DNA from: a virus
Length of the DNA: 24,711 bases
Reading direction: 5' to 3' (one strand)
Virus record (IMG/VR): IMGVR_UViG_3300012208_000010
Location: 1-24,711 of that record
The translations under genes were made by a program, and so were the position numbers. Below are positions 8,394 through 18,671 of the stretch, piece after piece. Position 1 is the stretch's first letter. Each line of letters opens with the position of its first letter. Below the pieces are notes generated by a model. The model was not told the origin of the DNA. It did no database searches and saw only the letters and a program-made list of their open reading frames with translations.

Positions 8394-9056
8394 ATGGCTA
8401 ATATAAAGACTTTCGTCGATGACGTAGATTTGCCTGCGAGTGATCTCAACAACTATTTGATGAAGCAAGCAGTGATTGCTTGCACATCAACAACACGACC
8501 CGCAAGCCCGGTGCCCGGAATGCATATCACCGAAACGGATACGGGTTTTGATCGCAAATGGAGCGGCTCAGCTTGGGTGCATGTTGACGATGGTTGGACA
8601 ACGTATACACCTTTATGGCAAGCAGCGATAGGCACGCCTACTACAGGCACTGACGGCAGCTTGACAGGCACATATAAACTAGAAAACGGCGGCTTACGCT
8701 ACCTCATTTCACATTCATTCGGCACTGCTGCAAACGGATTAAGTGGCGCTGAAGAAACATTGAATTACACGCTGCCTTCTCCTTTTGTAGCGGACTCCGG
8801 GTTGCCCAAGCAATGCGGCGGGAACGCCACATTATCTACGCCTGGCTATGCTGATTGGCCGGGGCAGGTTATGCACTATGCGGGAACTGGCACTGTCGCA
8901 GTGTTTTTTCCTACTTCTATTTCGGACACAAGGCTGTCCAATTGGCGGTCGTGTGACAGCACTGCTGCGTTGGGTAGCGGCAGGCCTGTTAACCCAGGCA
9001 ATTTTAGCGTTACTGATAACGGCAATTGCTATGTTTCAGGATTTGTCAAACTATGA
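8394..9056 (+). CDS. Minor tail protein, C-terminal beta domain
   Basis: 220 residues from the ATG at 8394, 14 bases after the adhesin stop, with a weak AAAGAGA ribosome site. The N-terminus (ANIKTFVDDVDLPASDLNNY) is the standard opening of actinophage minor tail proteins, where the phrase DGD.LTASDLN or similar anchors the protein to the tail tip. Residues 60-80 have WSGSAWVHVDDGWTTYTP, a small carbohydrate-binding-like strand pair. The remaining 140 residues resemble a beta-sandwich with aromatic residues, like a fibre head. Together with the adhesin it probably decides adsorption. The stop overlaps the next start (ATGA). Confidence 0.7.
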   Translation: MANIKTFVDDVDLPASDLNNYLMKQAVIACTSTTRPASPVPGMHITETDTGFDRKWSGSAWVHVDDGWTTYTPLWQAAIGTPTTGTDGSLTGTYKLENGGLRYLISHSFGTAANGLSGAEETLNYTLPSPFVADSGLPKQCGGNATLSTPGYADWPGQVMHYAGTGTVAVFFPTSISDTRLSNWRSCDSTAALGSGRPVNPGNFSVTDNGNCYVSGFVKL

Positions 9057-9433
9057 CAGTCGTAACGGTAGCTATCACGAAAACGGCTCTATTTCTAGGG
9101 ATGCCCGGGCCAACAATGCACACAAGTGTTGGAGGCGCTGGTGTAGTTTTGGCTGGAGGGTTTTCTGGGGGAGAATTGGCGGGACTGGTGGGGGCTGTTA
9201 TCGGCGGCATGCTTGGGGCAATCACGCTTATAGTTACGGTTCGCGCCTCAAATGCAACTCAAGCCCGAGAATACCGAAAAGAAATACAAGACTCTCACGA
9301 CAGGGGCGCTCTTGAAGCCAAAGAAAGTGCAGCCTATGAGATCGACAGGTTGCGTGATATCTTGAGAGATTTGCGTGCCGACAAAGAAGACTTGCGGGAG
9401 CAACTAAGAAACCAGGCTAGCAGTCGTGACTAA
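9053..9433 (+). CDS. Membrane protein with coiled-coil tail, lysis region
   Basis: 126 residues, starting at the ATG in ATGA with the previous gene's stop. Residues 26-66 are a long glycine-rich hydrophobic stretch (GAGVVLAGGFSGGELAGLVG and beyond) long enough for one or two membrane passes. The C-terminal 55 residues are charged and heptad-like (YEIDRLRDILRDLRADKEDL), a likely cytoplasmic coiled coil. It lies just before the endolysin and next to another one-pass membrane protein, so it may be a holin or holin regulator. I cannot separate these roles from the sequence. Confidence 0.6.
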   Translation: MTVVTVAITKTALFLGMPGPTMHTSVGGAGVVLAGGFSGGELAGLVGAVIGGMLGAITLIVTVRASNATQAREYRKEIQDSHDRGALEAKESAAYEIDRLRDILRDLRADKEDLREQLRNQASSRD

Positions 9434-9818
9434 AGACAGCATTTCGCAACGACGAAACAAACTTTTACTCTATTCAGTGGTAGTGCTGAACGTCTTCTTG
9501 ATGGCAGCATTAACCTCAGTCACTGTGCTTGTGATCAATTATCGTCAGCAAAGCACCAAGGATGCTGTCCGGCTAGCTAATGCCAACAAAGCAATAGCGG
9601 AATGCATCAACATAAACCTAGGGTTACGTGCGAAGCCTGGAGCCGACGATCTTATCGCACAACAGGAATGGTTGACTGAAATTAACGAGTATTTCCAAGA
9701 AGTCCAAAAAGGCGCAGTTGTAGATAAGCTACGCATCCCAACTGCGACAGTCAAATACCAGGCAGCCCTGAACGCAGACGCTGCGGTTCGAGCAGCTCAT
9801 CCGCTAGGTCAATGCTAG
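9426..9818 (+). CDS. Single-pass membrane protein, lysis region
   Basis: 130 residues, starting at GTG 9426 and overlapping the preceding gene by eight bases, so coupled. Residues 13-38 are a clear membrane helix (LLLYSVVVLNVFLMAALTSV), preceded by the basic residues RRNK, so the short N-terminus should be inside and the remaining 90 residues outside. The outer part is helical with two cysteines (one near residue 56, one at the very C-terminus). Position between tail genes and endolysin suggests a lysis accessory protein, for example a holin partner or a spanin-like protein. No known family was recognised. Confidence 0.55.
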   Translation: MTKDSISQRRNKLLLYSVVVLNVFLMAALTSVTVLVINYRQQSTKDAVRLANANKAIAECININLGLRAKPGADDLIAQQEWLTEINEYFQEVQKGAVVDKLRIPTATVKYQAALNADAAVRAAHPLGQC

Positions 9819-14781: not shown

Positions 14782-16671
14782 GTGGCGGGTATGCGCGCTG
14801 AGTTAGATGAAAGCGGCAAACGAATCCACCTCTACGGCTGGGTTGGCCCCACAACGCCAACGCTATGCAAAAAGATCGACGGATGCCGTTTCAGCAAGCA
14901 CAGCGGCGCACACTGGAGCTACCCACTCGCAACAAGCACATGCAAGCAAATGCGCATGATATTTAAGGACCGGCTCTCCCTTGGTCCCCGGCTTAACGCG
15001 TGGGCGTGGCAAGCACGACGAAACGAGGAACAGCTAACTCAACTGATTACCGGCAGGGATGCAACACTCACACACTTGCAAATCAGAGCACCACGTATCG
15101 CCGAAGCGATGGGAAGTCGCACATACCAGAAAGTAGCAGCGGCTTTCGGTGCGCGGGTCGGTTCGTTTCTACTGTCCGATCAACCCGGCGTGGGCAAGAC
15201 GATTGAAACGCTTGCCACAATTATTGAAGTCAGCGCAGGTAAGCCTGGACTGCACCTGATTTTCTGCCCCAGCATCGCTATCAACACCGTGTGGTTCGAC
15301 GAGATCAATCAGTGGCTTGGTGGTCGTGCCGAAGCGGTGCCGCTCACCGGCCAGCGGCCCAACCGTGAAGCCGGGCTGGAATACGCGTTAGCTCGGGCGA
15401 AAACTAACGCGCGAGAAAACCGACACACTTTTGTTATCGCTAACCCGCACATGGCCGCGATTTTTCCACCCAAAGACGGCAAGCCTGCACGAGCCTCATA
15501 CCCCAAGTTTTTCGGTGTGCAGTGGGATACATGCGTTGCCGACGAATCTCAACAGCAACTCATTCGCACGAAGCACAAAAACACCCAAATTCGCGCCGGG
15601 ATGGTGCATATTCGAGCTAAGCAGCGTATCGCCTTGTCGGGCACACCAATGCGGGGCAAGCCTCAACTTCTGTGGGGCACCCTCAACTGGCTTCGACCAG
15701 GCATCTATACAAGCTACTGGCGATGGGTCGCCAAATACTGGCAACTCGGTTCGGACGGCTTTTCGAACTACGTCATTGGCGATTTCTTGCCGGGCGGCGA
15801 AGAAGCGCTCGCGCGTGACCTTGCCTCAATTTCTCTCCGGCGCACAAAAGCCGAAGTGATGCCAGAATTACCCGCGAAGCTGTATGGGGGGACGTACCTT
15901 ATTTCGGGCGACACAGATTCACCGCATGGCGTATGGCTGCGGTTTAGCTCAGAGCAGAAACGTCAATACGATTCGCGTATTTCGGACGGTGTTGTTGCCG
16001 ACAATGGCCGGGAGTTGATTGTTAACGGCACGTTACCGCAAGATATGCGGCGCAAGCAGATTTGTGGCGCGCCGGGAACAATCGAAGATGAGCGGTTTCA
16101 ACCGAAGATTAAAGCCGCGTTAAGCGGCGAGGGTAATAGCGCTAAGTTTGATTGGGTTGTGGCTAAACTCGTCGAGCTAGGACTTACAGGCTCGGACGAG
16201 CCTGTAGAAGATGCACGTATAGTTATCGCATCCCAATTCACGAGTCTGATAAACGAGTTCGCCAGTGAGCTTGTGGGGCTCGGCATCCCTGTTTCTGTCG
16301 TCACTGGCAAGACACCCCAAAAACGACGCGACGTATTGGTGCGAGATTTTCAATCGGCTGGGCCGAGCGCGCGAGTGTTTCTCATCAACACACGAGCGGC
16401 AGGCGTGGCTATCACACTAGATATGGCGGACTACCTCGTGCTGCTGGATGAAACATGGACGCCAGATGACCAGGAGCAAGTTGAGGATAGAATCCATCGC
16501 GCGAGTCGCATCCATAACGTTGTGATTTACTACCTACGTGTGTTAGATTCGATCGAAGAAGAAATTGCATGGATCACGGCAGCAAAAGAAAACGTGCAAA
16601 AATATATACTTGATGGCTCGCGAGGCGTAGAGTACGCCCGTAAGCTATACAAAGAGAAACAAGCCAAATAG
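14782..16671 (+). CDS. SNF2-type superfamily II helicase/ATPase
   Basis: 629 residues from GTG 14782 (ATG 14791 is the alternative). Residues 1-95 form a small N-terminal domain with LYGWVGPTTPTLCKKI and HWSYPLATSTCKQMR, similar to the HARP-like domain before phage SNF2 enzymes. Motif I is QPGVGKT (Lys139, Thr140). Motif II is ADESQQ (Asp254, Glu255), with Gln in place of the usual final His. Motif III is LSGTPMRGKP. The second lobe has LRRTKAEVMPELP, then TRAAGVAITL (motif V) and QVEDRIHRAS (motif VI, Arg570 and Arg573). Such enzymes translocate on double-stranded DNA to remodel replication forks. It lies with replication genes. Direction and substrate are unknown. Confidence 0.9.
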   Translation: MAGMRAELDESGKRIHLYGWVGPTTPTLCKKIDGCRFSKHSGAHWSYPLATSTCKQMRMIFKDRLSLGPRLNAWAWQARRNEEQLTQLITGRDATLTHLQIRAPRIAEAMGSRTYQKVAAAFGARVGSFLLSDQPGVGKTIETLATIIEVSAGKPGLHLIFCPSIAINTVWFDEINQWLGGRAEAVPLTGQRPNREAGLEYALARAKTNARENRHTFVIANPHMAAIFPPKDGKPARASYPKFFGVQWDTCVADESQQQLIRTKHKNTQIRAGMVHIRAKQRIALSGTPMRGKPQLLWGTLNWLRPGIYTSYWRWVAKYWQLGSDGFSNYVIGDFLPGGEEALARDLASISLRRTKAEVMPELPAKLYGGTYLISGDTDSPHGVWLRFSSEQKRQYDSRISDGVVADNGRELIVNGTLPQDMRRKQICGAPGTIEDERFQPKIKAALSGEGNSAKFDWVVAKLVELGLTGSDEPVEDARIVIASQFTSLINEFASELVGLGIPVSVVTGKTPQKRRDVLVRDFQSAGPSARVFLINTRAAGVAITLDMADYLVLLDETWTPDDQEQVEDRIHRASRIHNVVIYYLRVLDSIEEEIAWITAAKENVQKYILDGSRGVEYARKLYKEKQAK

Positions 16672-16698
16672 CTTTCCTCGCTCACGGGCGCAGGAAGC
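16671..16698 (+). terminator. 10-bp bulged hairpin at the helicase stop
   Basis: GCTT-CCT plus CGC (16671-16681) pairs with GCG plus AGGAAGC (16688-16698), with single-base bulges at 16675 and 16691. The loop is six bases. It starts inside the stop codon. No U tract follows, so it may end the helicase transcript, protect its 3' end, or be the first helix of the RNA region that follows. Confidence 0.4.
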
Positions 16699-16721
16699 CA
16701 GAAAAACCGAGAAAACGCGAT

Positions 16722-17141
16722 GCTCGAAGCGAGCTAAGCCGGTCTGGCACAACTGAATAAAGGTTCTTTTATTCTCGTGCGGTAGGTCCGACCGATCCAA
16801 TATCGAGAACGAAAGGGCGCACGCCTCCCTGAAAGAAGTGCCTGCCCGGTATGGAAAGCTCGTGGGTCCAGGAATCTTAGAGAGTGGAGCTATCCGGGCA
16901 GGCCGGATCGTGCGCTAGGCACCTCGCTGACGTGAGGTTTTGTGAAAACGTCAGGGCGCTCGTGCTTTATAGATCGGGAGAAGTCTCGGTTAGAGGACAG
17001 CAGCCCGTTCGAGTCGGGCCACGAGCACAGGGAGATCCGTAAAACTAGGTGCAACGCCTCTGAGAGCCACGTCTTGCAGCCGACTTTTGTCGGTGGTTGA
17101 GCGGACCAAGCGTTAGCAGCAAGTCCCTTGTGAATCTCCCG
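16722..17141 (+). ncRNA. Candidate large structured noncoding RNA, region A
   Basis: A 565-base stretch without a credible ORF is packed with perfect short helices. In order: GCTCG/CGAGC (16722-16734); GAATAAA/TTTATTC (16755-16774); CCTGCCCGG/CCGGGCAGG (16841-16849 with 16894-16902), nesting AGCTC/GAGCT; and CGGATC/GATCCG (16904-16909 with 17034-17039). The last closes a multibranch domain holding GTGC/GCAC, CTGACGT/ACGTCAG and a tRNA-like element. A second domain, closed by GGGAGAT/ATCTCCC (17030-17036 with 17134-17140), holds AGGT/GCCT, CCGAC/GTCGG (17080-17093), TGGT/ACCA and CAAG/CTTG (17120-17130). The two closing helices share three bases, so they must shorten or alternate. No promoter is certain; TTGTGA-N17-TTAGAT at 16520-16548, inside the helicase gene, is a candidate. 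Rfam class not recognised. Confidence 0.5.
16958..17027 (+). ncRNA. tRNA-like element without a normal anticodon arm
   Basis: GCTCGTG (16958-16964) pairs perfectly with CACGAGC (17020-17026) as a 7-bp acceptor stem, followed by discriminator A and no CCA. Directly next to its 3' strand is a perfect T arm: GCCCG, loop TTCGAGT, CGGGC (17003-17019), with canonical G53-C61 and TTCRANN. The 38 bases between 16965 and 17002 are too short and irregular for normal D and anticodon arms. GTCT/GGAC (16983-16998) around CGGTTAGA has a D-loop look. Alternatively CTTT/GAAG encloses ATAGATCGGGA, with A14, GG and A21 as in a D loop. Neither reading leaves a 7-base anticodon loop with U33. It may be a tRNA mimic or a decayed tRNA. 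It lies inside the multibranch domain of region A. Confidence 0.6.
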
Positions 17142-17147
17142 CAAAAG

Positions 17148-17206
17148 TCGCAAGAAAATTAAAAAAAGATTTAACTCTTGCGAAGCATGAAGACATCAGG
17201 TAACGT
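17148..17206 (+). promoter_or_regulatory. Inverted repeat, A-rich loop and promoter before the AT-hook gene
   Basis: TCGCAAGA (17148-17155) and TCTTGCGA (17176-17183) are perfect inverted repeats around a 20-base A-rich segment, the most AT-rich stretch nearby. TTGCGA (17178-17183), the right arm, is a good -35 box and TAACGT (17201-17206) a good -10 at 17-base spacing. The predicted transcript starts near 17213, 24 bases before the AT-hook gene, which has AGGAG five bases before its ATG. A protein bound to the repeat would cover the -35. An origin of replication is an alternative reading. Confidence 0.5.
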
Positions 17207-17236
17207 GCCGGATGACCGAGAAAATCAGGAGAAAAC

Positions 17237-17866
17237 ATGCCACCGAAGGGCCAAACAAAGCCTGTCGCCGTCGTCGAAGACGAGTGGGAGGACGCTGAAG
17301 ACACCGAGCTGGACGAGGACGCCGAAGAGGTCGAATCCGACGGAGACGAGACCGAAGAGGTTGAGTCGGACGAAGAGGCCGAAACCGGCTACGAAGGCGA
17401 GCTGGACGAGGCTGTCGCAACCGCGCTCAACCGCAACCCACGCAGCAACGAAATTGCTTATGCTGCATGGTTGAGCGAGAACGCGGGTATCGACATTGGT
17501 GCCGAGGGTGTTCATGCCGCGTTGTCGCTTTATCGGGTGTGGAAAGCTAGCGAAAGCTACGTCGCGTACAAGGAGGAGCTGAAGTACAACACTGAGCACA
17601 AGGATGAGGCGATTGCACGGCGCAAGTTGGCCAAGCTCGCGCAGCGTCGTGCAGAAGTGGAAGCTGAGCTGGAAAAGATCGCACTTGCTCGCACGGCAGG
17701 CGCAAAGGCAAAGGCAGTAGCCAAGGCGAAGGCTCCAGTAGCTACTAAGAAGGCTGCTGCGAAGGCGATCGTTGCTGCTCCGGCGGCAAAGCGAGGCCGT
17801 CCACGTAAGGCTGTCGAGATCGTGCCGGACATCGCGGAATACGAAGACGACGAAGACGACTTCTAA
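17237..17866 (+). CDS. Acidic, Lys/Ala-rich AT-hook DNA-binding protein
   Basis: 209 residues, with CAGGAG before the ATG. Residues 12-58 are extremely acidic (DEWEDAEDTELDEDAEEVES). Residues 59-150 look helical, with NEIAYAAWLSENAGIDIGAE and a coiled coil around ARRKLAKLAQRRAEVEAELE. Residues 152-192 are Lys/Ala-rich (GAKAKAVAKAKAPVATKKAA) and end in KRGRPRK (185-191), a textbook AT hook that binds the minor groove of A/T-rich DNA. The last residues, EYEDDEDDF, are an acidic tip with a terminal aromatic, similar to the SSB C-terminal tip. This is the architecture of a histone H1- or Lsr2-like nucleoid protein with acidic ends. The gene is flanked on both sides by hairpin-rich noncoding DNA. 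Role inferred: DNA compaction, replication or silencing. Confidence 0.7.
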   Translation: MPPKGQTKPVAVVEDEWEDAEDTELDEDAEEVESDGDETEEVESDEEAETGYEGELDEAVATALNRNPRSNEIAYAAWLSENAGIDIGAEGVHAALSLYRVWKASESYVAYKEELKYNTEHKDEAIARRKLAKLAQRRAEVEAELEKIALARTAGAKAKAVAKAKAPVATKKAAAKAIVAAPAAKRGRPRKAVEIVPDIAEYEDDEDDF

Positions 17867-17923
17867 ACCAACCACAAGCTTTGGGTAACGATCACGTACC
17901 GTACTGCGAGAGTCGGGGGACGC

Positions 17924-18127
17924 TTGCAGCACAAACATGGGGGCGAGGTCGCTGCACAGAGGAAACTCGTCAGCAAATTCCGGGGGGAACGGACTGACGA
18001 GGGTCGCGTAACACCAAAAGCGGTAGAACTTCCCCTCACCGCTAAGGGTGCGCTCGTTCACGACGAGATACGCGCACGAGGATTTCACCGACAACCAAAA
18101 TCCCGGCAAAGGACTGATCGAAAATGA
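17924..18127 (+). CDS. Doubtful 67-residue ORF across RNA region B
   Basis: It can start at TTG 17924, with GGGGG four bases before, and its stop overlaps the next gene's ATG (ATGA at 18124), as in genuine coupled genes here. The protein is basic (QRKLVSKFRGERTDEGR) with no recognisable motif. Against it, the same bases form six perfect helices, and composition differs from neighbouring proteins. A conserved protein in relatives would rescue it. Otherwise region B is better read as RNA. Confidence 0.25.
   Translation: MQHKHGGEVAAQRKLVSKFRGERTDEGRVTPKAVELPLTAKGALVHDEIRARGFHRQPKSRQRTDRK
17925..18103 (+). ncRNA. Candidate structured noncoding RNA, region B
   Basis: Between the AT-hook gene and the next firm start (257 bases) lie six perfect helices in tight order: TGCAGC/GCTGCA (17925-17930, 17951-17956); CTCGTCAG/CTGACGAG (17966-17973, 17994-18001), with TTCC/GGAA nested; CGCGTA/TACGCG (18005-18010, 18069-18074), enclosing AGCGGT/ACCGCT (18019-18024, 18038-18043) and CTCGT/ACGAG (18053-18067); and GGATTT/AAATCC (18080-18085, 18098-18103). 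The enclosed 70-base unit is a three-way junction of similar size to the tRNA-like element of region A. The 57 bases before it show nothing firm. It could be a leader regulating 18124 or an independent RNA. Confidence 0.45.
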
Positions 18128-18495
18128 CCCAAAACGCTAACATAATAAACATTGATGGCGAAATATTTGTGCGACAGGGATCAAAGCCGTCGTCCCATAC
18201 AACAATTGATGCCGATTTACGACCATACGTAGTTGTGCGCTCCGCGACTGCATCCCCATTTGCAGGTTACTTGGTCGCGAAAACTGAAACAACGGTAACG
18301 CTGATGAAAGCTCGTCGCATTCGGCGTTGGTTTGGCGCGATGGATTTGAACCAACTTGCAACTGAGGGCACAACTGCGCCCGAAAAATGCCAATTTGGTG
18401 TTCCCGGCATCGTAGAAATTCCGTTCAATGAGATTCATCTTTGCACGCCCGTGGGAGCCGCATCTATTCAGGCGGTGAAAGAATGGAAGATCTGA
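18124..18495 (+). CDS. DUF6948-like protein
   Basis: 123 residues from ATG 18124, with AAAGGA eleven bases upstream. It has YVVVRSATASPFAGYLVAKT, then VTLMKARRIRRWFGAMDLNQ, then APEKCQFGVP and a final IHLCTPVGAASIQAVKEWKI. These match the order and wording of DUF6948, a small all-beta-like domain found in many phages, usually reading YVVVR..AG.FAG, ARRIW.W.GA..L.QLA.EG and P..C.F. The function of the family is unknown. It overlaps a Tyr-Gly repeat protein by 13 bases, a pairing I recall seeing next to DUF6948 genes elsewhere. Confidence 0.7.
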   Translation: MTQNANIINIDGEIFVRQGSKPSSHTTIDADLRPYVVVRSATASPFAGYLVAKTETTVTLMKARRIRRWFGAMDLNQLATEGTTAPEKCQFGVPGIVEIPFNEIHLCTPVGAASIQAVKEWKI

Positions 18496-18671
18496 CGAGC
18501 TACGGCTACGGCTACGGCTACGGCGACGGCTCCGGCGACGGCGACGGCTACGGCTACGGAGACGGCTCCGGCTACGGCGACGGCTCCGGCGACGGCTACG
18601 GCTACGGCTACGGCGACGGCTCCGGCTACGGCTACGGCTACGGCGACGGCTCCGGCTACGTCGATGAGTAA
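18483..18671 (+). CDS. Gly-Tyr/Gly-Asp/Gly-Ser repeat protein
   Basis: 62 residues from ATG 18483, with AGGCGGTGA ahead, overlapping the DUF6948-like gene by 13 bases. After MEDLTS the whole protein is a two-residue repeat of Gly with Tyr, Asp or Ser (YGYGYGYGDGSGDGDGYGYG), ending YVDE. Tyr-Gly-rich low-complexity sequences tend to be disordered and to form condensates or hydrogels. No fold or enzyme activity is suggested. Copy number should vary easily by slippage. Coupling in frame between two real genes argues for translation. Confidence 0.65.
   Translation: MEDLTSYGYGYGYGDGSGDGDGYGYGDGSGYGDGSGDGYGYGYGDGSGYGYGYGDGSGYVDE
18501..18659 (+). repeat. GGCTAC/GGCGAC/GGCTCC hexamer repeat
   Basis: About 26 tandem six-base units, always GGC (rarely GGA) followed by TAC, GAC or TCC, encode the Gly-X repeats. 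Larger units also recur, such as GGCTACGGCGACGGCTCC. Strictly repeated codons rather than synonymous variation point to recent growth by slippage or recombination. Confidence 0.9.

Follow-up and report, generated by a model that had tools for sequence, protein, structure and literature searches.

A noncoding intergenic region with a tRNA-like module in a virus with an actinophage-type gene set

GOLLD is a large structured RNA of phages and prophages that lies close to tRNAs and in some cases carries one in its linker, and ROOL is a large noncoding phage RNA often found close to tRNA islands (PMC12286853). The known substrates of RNase P include tRNA-like structures in mRNAs and in non-tRNA RNAs of phages and other sources, among them phage M3 RNA and the C4 antisense RNA (PMC11143913). 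Here we describe an intergenic region of IMG/VR record IMGVR_UViG_3300012208_000010, a linear record of 24,711 bases that was analysed whole (the window) and is probably a genome fragment. The window carries an actinophage-type gene set, including a tape measure protein, a helicase, a Cas4-type exonuclease and a Sak4-like protein. Its protein relatives are less than 60% identical and occur in phages of Gordonia, Rhodococcus, Mycobacterium and Streptomyces. The DNA helicase gene (PHROG 62; phrog_62, E 8.8e-94) occupies 14782-16671 on the plus strand, and its nearest phage relatives are at 37-40% identity. The helicase stop codon adjoins a gap of 565 bases (16672-17236), which ends at the start, 17237, of a gene in the same direction that has a Shine-Dalgarno sequence, AGGAG, at 17227-17231 (plus strand; by eye from the sequence). 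This gene (17237-17866, plus strand) encodes a 209-aa protein with an acidic N-terminal half and a basic C-terminal part containing an AT-hook-like KRGRPRK; it had no PHROG match and no relative in viral contigs. The original description of the surrounding genes as nearly gapless was overstated, as 17867-18123 is likewise without a listed gene. Further along, tandem 18-base and 12-base repeats at 18499-18664 encode GYGDGSGDGYGYG-type sequence inside a small ORF (18441-18671).

The gap codes for nothing. Codon scores were below zero in all six frames across its whole length and above zero for all listed genes, and every one of the six frames contains 3-9 stops. The longest plus-strand ORF is 52 aa with a GTG start, and an 87-aa ORF on the minus strand has a negative codon score. 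Two short sub-segments scored slightly above zero on minus-strand frames (0.03 and 0.11), which we read as noise. The original prediction that about 565 bases here hold no plausible ORF was thus confirmed.

Within the gap lies a tRNA-like module at 16958-17026 (plus strand), followed by ACA. Its acceptor-type stem is a perfect 7-bp helix of GCTCGTG (16958-16964) with CACGAGC (17020-17026). Stacked directly on this stem is a canonical T-arm, GCCCG-TTCGAGT-CGGGC (17003-17019), with five of five pairs and a consensus T-loop. The spacing from acceptor to T-arm is 38 nt; most of the real tRNAs encountered have 39-43 nt. A strict scan for the module architecture gave no match in 2.83 Mb of shuffled sequence; in real sequence it returned the window module and, among related loci, only tRNA-type matches. 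A looser scan gave 1.2 chance matches per 1.94 Mb. The perfect acceptor and T-arm pairing and the empty strict scan of shuffles bear out the tRNA-like part that had been predicted here, and the module is present beyond chance.

An acceptor-type stem with a T-arm is a minimal RNase P substrate, and the module has the two stacked, with a consensus T-loop. In this it resembles the tRNA-like RNase P substrates phage M3 RNA, C4 antisense RNA and the TYMV 3' end. It differs from tRNAs and these substrates in that its D and anticodon arms are degenerate, neither forming well, and that it scores below the tRNA model threshold; its cleavage is a prediction. A functional tRNA gene would form a cloverleaf with an anticodon arm, which the module does not, and neither ARAGORN nor Rfam called a tRNA. 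The module is also like tmRNA, in which an acceptor and T-arm are kept and the lower half of the tRNA is absent or replaced. However, in tmRNA distant 5' and 3' ends close the tRNA-like domain, with a tag-coding part between them, whereas the gap has no such arrangement, the acceptor strands of the module being just 55 nt apart, and ARAGORN was negative. A covariance model (R1) of 25 anticodon-less tRNA-like elements (alignment A1) ranked the module top in the window (14.2 bits, E 0.008), a score that is not independent evidence for the T-arm or acceptor because the R1 sequences were selected for T-arm and acceptor pairing. These 25 phage elements (examples are L049:2907-2968, L074:8611-8672, L088:1350-1411 and L045:4042-4103, with 21 others) have an acceptor, D-arm and T-arm, and a few bases replace about 17 nt of anticodon arm. 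Of those scanned, many pass the Rfam tRNA model. The string GGTTAGAG, when used as search bait, led to anticodon-less tRNA-like elements elsewhere; in the window it is probably not a D-arm, as its loop would be 5 nt.

The near-tRNA length (38 nt between the arms) together with degraded D and anticodon arms is what would be expected if a tRNA gene or tRNA cluster had been decaying in this intergenic spacer and the module were what is left of it, with no present function. We consider this unlikely. All 12 of 12 acceptor and T-arm pairs are intact, which is unexpected for drifting sequence, and decay leaves unexplained the 112-nt closed domain (z -2.7) and the other hairpins of the gap, described below.

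To compare the folding of the region with dinucleotide-shuffled controls, as had been proposed, we used RNAfold on 16671-17145. The plus strand folded at -187.7 kcal/mol (z -3.05), with none of 100 shuffles as good, and the minus strand at -172.3 kcal/mol (z -2.63). This z-score is modest evidence, since several coding stretches fold equally well or better after GC correction; among overlapping 475-base stretches of the window, the GC-adjusted rank of the region was fifth on the plus strand, below coding stretches. The predicted fold is therefore suggestive and not decisive. By part, z was -3.1 for 16840-16910, -3.5 for 16958-17029, -2.7 for 17030-17141 and -3.8 for the hairpin at 17148-17190, and the 5' segment 16672-16957 as a whole was near chance (z only -1.7). 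Predicted hairpins in this plus-strand segment are at 16674-16696, 16697-16748, 16755-16774, 16840-16903 and 16927-16954, the last drawn by eye from the sequence and absent from the minimum-energy (MFE) structure. The hairpin at 16840-16903 is long and bulged, is closed by GCCTGCCCGG/CCGGGCAGGC and is present in both the MFE and the centroid. The 3' domain (17030-17140, plus strand) is closed by a perfect 7-bp helix of GGGAGAT (17030-17036) with ATCTCCC (17134-17140), whose pairs have probabilities of 0.78-1.0. A further hairpin, TCGCAAGA/TCTTGCGA with an A-rich loop, lies in the leader of gene 17237 (17148-17183, plus strand) and has no terminator-like T run. We found no promoter or terminator signal belonging to 16672-17140 itself.

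All the helix strings quoted in the original prediction are present: CCTGCCCGG at 16841 with CCGGGCAGG at 16894, CCGAC at 17080 with GTCGG at 17089, GGGAGAT at 17030 with ATCTCCC at 17134, and CGGATC at 16904 with GATCCG at 17034. The last two helices are mutually exclusive, because GATCCG (17034-17039) overlaps GGGAGAT (17030-17036) and bases 17034-17036 are common to both. A second exclusion concerns the module. The minimum-energy multibranch fold is closed by a long-range helix of about 16778-16796 with 17009-17028 (feature 16778-17028, plus strand), which pairs the T-arm away and destroys the module. The free MFE was -185.1 kcal/mol and became -174.8 kcal/mol with the module enforced, a cost of 10.3 kcal/mol in energies that omit D-loop/T-loop tertiary contacts and the order of folding during transcription. 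In the full-length ensemble the module had a pair probability of 0. Folded alone it reached 0.85-1.0 for the acceptor pairs and about 0.9 for the T-arm, and once a few tens of flanking bases were included it became a minority state (0.23-0.37). The earlier interpretation thus holds for a structured noncoding segment and for a tRNA-like part, but not for a multibranch fold and a tRNA-like part together.

The two folds raise the idea of a new large phage RNA class in which one sequence would alternate between the multibranch fold and the tRNA mimic, as a complementary segment about 210 nt upstream captures the T-arm or lets it go; we regard this as distinctly unlikely. They also bear on whether the gap is a long 5' leader that regulates gene 17237 in the manner of a riboswitch or attenuator, with competition for the T-arm as the switch. 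The gap does lie directly 5' of a gene with a Shine-Dalgarno sequence and can form two mutually exclusive structures. Nevertheless, such a leader is very unlikely: Rfam detected no known riboswitch, there is no terminator and no evident expression platform beside the Shine-Dalgarno sequence, and no relative of the 17237 protein was found.

Homologues of the gap were sought at several levels. The Rfam search proposed with the original prediction gave no relevant match to the gap at the gathering threshold or even at E<=10, in agreement with the statement that no known class was recognised. A blastn search of 50,697 phages at E<=10 found nothing. In plasmids, blastn gave only weak matches of 26-34 nt, two of which cover the T-arm in Streptomyces plasmids; no full acceptor partner was seen, and these were put down to chance or to another kind of T-arm hairpin. 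At loci around relatives of the helicase, exonuclease and topoisomerase, blastn, nhmmer and a single-sequence covariance model (R3) detected no RNA homologue. The best other match of R3 (20.3 bits, E 0.012 by rough calibration) was in a Streptomyces plasmid, L108, a locus chosen because its T-arm matched. Pattern scans with two stretches of the 3' domain matched only unrelated, apparently coding DNA, and a search of bacterial genomes for helicase relatives found none. The searches may not have covered near-identical records, and the absence of the gap RNA from relatives with 35-60% protein identity indicates that the segment is not widely conserved, and no more than that.

These searches weigh on the reading of the gap as a single stand-alone structured RNA of about 470 nt (16672-17140), similar to GOLLD or ROOL, with the module as an internal domain or linker. 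A new ornate RNA of this kind is possible and unproven, and we judge it somewhat unlikely. Its length, helix density, z of -3.05, lack of an ORF and tRNA-like part all fit, and GOLLD and ROOL adjoin tRNA islands in phages, where tRNAs can occupy the GOLLD linker (PMC12286853). On the other hand, neither the search at E<=10 in Rfam nor any other search produced a homologue, no promoter or terminator of its own was seen, and in the 5' half the advantage over shuffles is slight. The covariance model of GOLLD (RF02032) did not match at gathering or at E<=10; GOLLD is often more than 800 nt, against about 470 nt in the gap, where its conserved 3' region is undemonstrated. The Rfam model of ROOL did not match either, and a multibranch core in the gap is unproven.

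The interval between helicase and exonuclease varies freely among related phages. Two of them (L195 and L201) have a real tRNA-Met gene there, and a third (L118) has nine or more tRNAs arrayed downstream of its topoisomerase gene; real tRNAs near the same genes are consistent with decay of a tRNA gene in the window. In a fourth phage (L112), whose topoisomerase is 57% identical to that of the window, a stretch of about 800 nt located 2.5 kb downstream of the topoisomerase gene (8795-9605) has no ORF that makes a convincing gene and contains three tRNA-like parts. The first is a tRNA whose anticodon region carries an insertion of 41 nt (Rfam, 43.5 bits), the second a module with 7/7 and 5/5 pairs and 15 nt between, and the third a T-arm ending in GCGACCA. 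The stretch terminates in a 16-bp hairpin followed by CCTATTTT. As an ORF-less, helix-rich stretch holding tRNA-like parts in a related phage, it fits a stand-alone ornate RNA, but it has no sequence similarity to the window and folds with a z of only -2.0. It is an analogue of the gap and not a homologue. ORF-poor gaps downstream of the helicase in L002-L006 look unrelated to that of the window. In L197-L222, the intergenic stretches with very strong structure consist of long hairpins and terminators and are no ornate RNA. Among these, very stable long intergenic hairpins (L221 9183-9946, L222 4607-5113, L217 9543-9979 and L218 980-1690) had rough z values of -7 to -10 with eight shuffles each; some have GCGCGAGCG-rich arms and others are followed by T runs, unlike the region in the window.

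A separate tRNA-like element was found between the genes of other phages. It is 43 nt long and ungapped, and consists of a T-arm-like hairpin on a 5-bp outer stem (consensus GGGTGACCGGCAGACACCGGGGTTCGAGTCCCCGGCACCCACT). The linker and T-loop (GGCANRCAYCGNGGTTCGAG) were set by the search pattern and the outer stem was left free; that stem was 98.6% paired over 84 distinct sequences (alignment A3, which omits by choice two of 86 copies, both without the outer stem); over all 86 copies the five outer pairs were 95-99% paired. Exchanges, GC/CG and UA/CG/AU/GC among them, occur in the outer stem, with pairing far above slid controls, and two further covarying pairs, 7-13 and 14-29 (the second from linker to T-loop), were picked after viewing the data. 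The median distance of the element from the preceding stop is 13 nt, and the next start most often follows it by 30-50 nt. Up to 12 copies occur in 7.5 kb (L242), and the cultured Streptomyces phages listed have 3-8 places per record; its loci include L302 and L394 (Streptomyces phage Zemlya). When one copy was searched by blastn, 159 phage records matched, and some of the weakest matches were tRNA genes or coding sequence. High-scoring copies were also present in genome contigs of actinobacteria, Gemmatimonadota and Bacteroidota. In Mycobacterium phage Riparian (L393 6003-6045) the element contains the start annotated for gene 81 (6005), suggesting that the true start is probably further downstream. 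The element had no match in Rfam, and literature searches found no description of it, which does not prove absence. The window module is like this element in having a T-arm stacked on a stem between phage genes, but it has no GGCANRCAY linker. Against the model of the element (R2) it scored 7.6 bits (E 3.3), with the T-loop alone matching; it is not a member of the family.

The reading that we tentatively prefer is that the gap is an untranslated, structured processing region of the rightward transcript, built around a module cut by host RNase P. It is favoured by the absence of coding potential and the shared direction of the flanking genes, and by the perfect acceptor and T-arm, consensus T-loop and near-tRNA spacing of the module. 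The possible hairpin at 16927-16954 ends 3 nt upstream of the module and the 7-bp domain begins 3 nt downstream, which also argues for it. Support from elsewhere comes from the RNase P precedents in phage and other non-tRNA RNAs (PMC11143913), from the independent 43-nt tRNA-like elements between genes of other phages and from the ORF-less L112 stretch with its three tRNA-like parts. Against it stand the competing helix, better by 10.3 kcal/mol at full length with tertiary energy uncounted, the lack of a detected homologue together with the degenerate D and anticodon parts, and the position of the module outside the 43-nt family (7.6 bits, loop only). From module to start there are 210 nt, far more than the usual 30-50 nt in that family, which also counts against it.

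Under the preferred processing reading, the gap would be transcribed as part of one rightward phage RNA. Host RNase P would cut on the 5' side of the module, whose 3' side would be trimmed by RNase Z or by exonucleases. Excision of the module would separate the helicase message from that of gene 17237. The helicase mRNA would then end in the hairpins of 16672-16957, which would form its 3' trailer, and the mRNA of gene 17237 would begin with the 7-bp GGGAGAT/ATCTCCC domain at its very 5' end. Such structured ends may slow mRNA decay. The long-range helix that sequesters the T-arm could also make cutting conditional.

Processing of the module, if it occurs, would mean that phages separate genes by tRNA-like punctuation, in the way that mitochondria use tRNAs, and would provide a simple way to test how mRNA ends are set in crowded phage operons. 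The 43-nt element is strongly supported and occurs in cultured Streptomyces and Mycobacterium phages, and it permits a direct test of the punctuation idea in laboratory strains.
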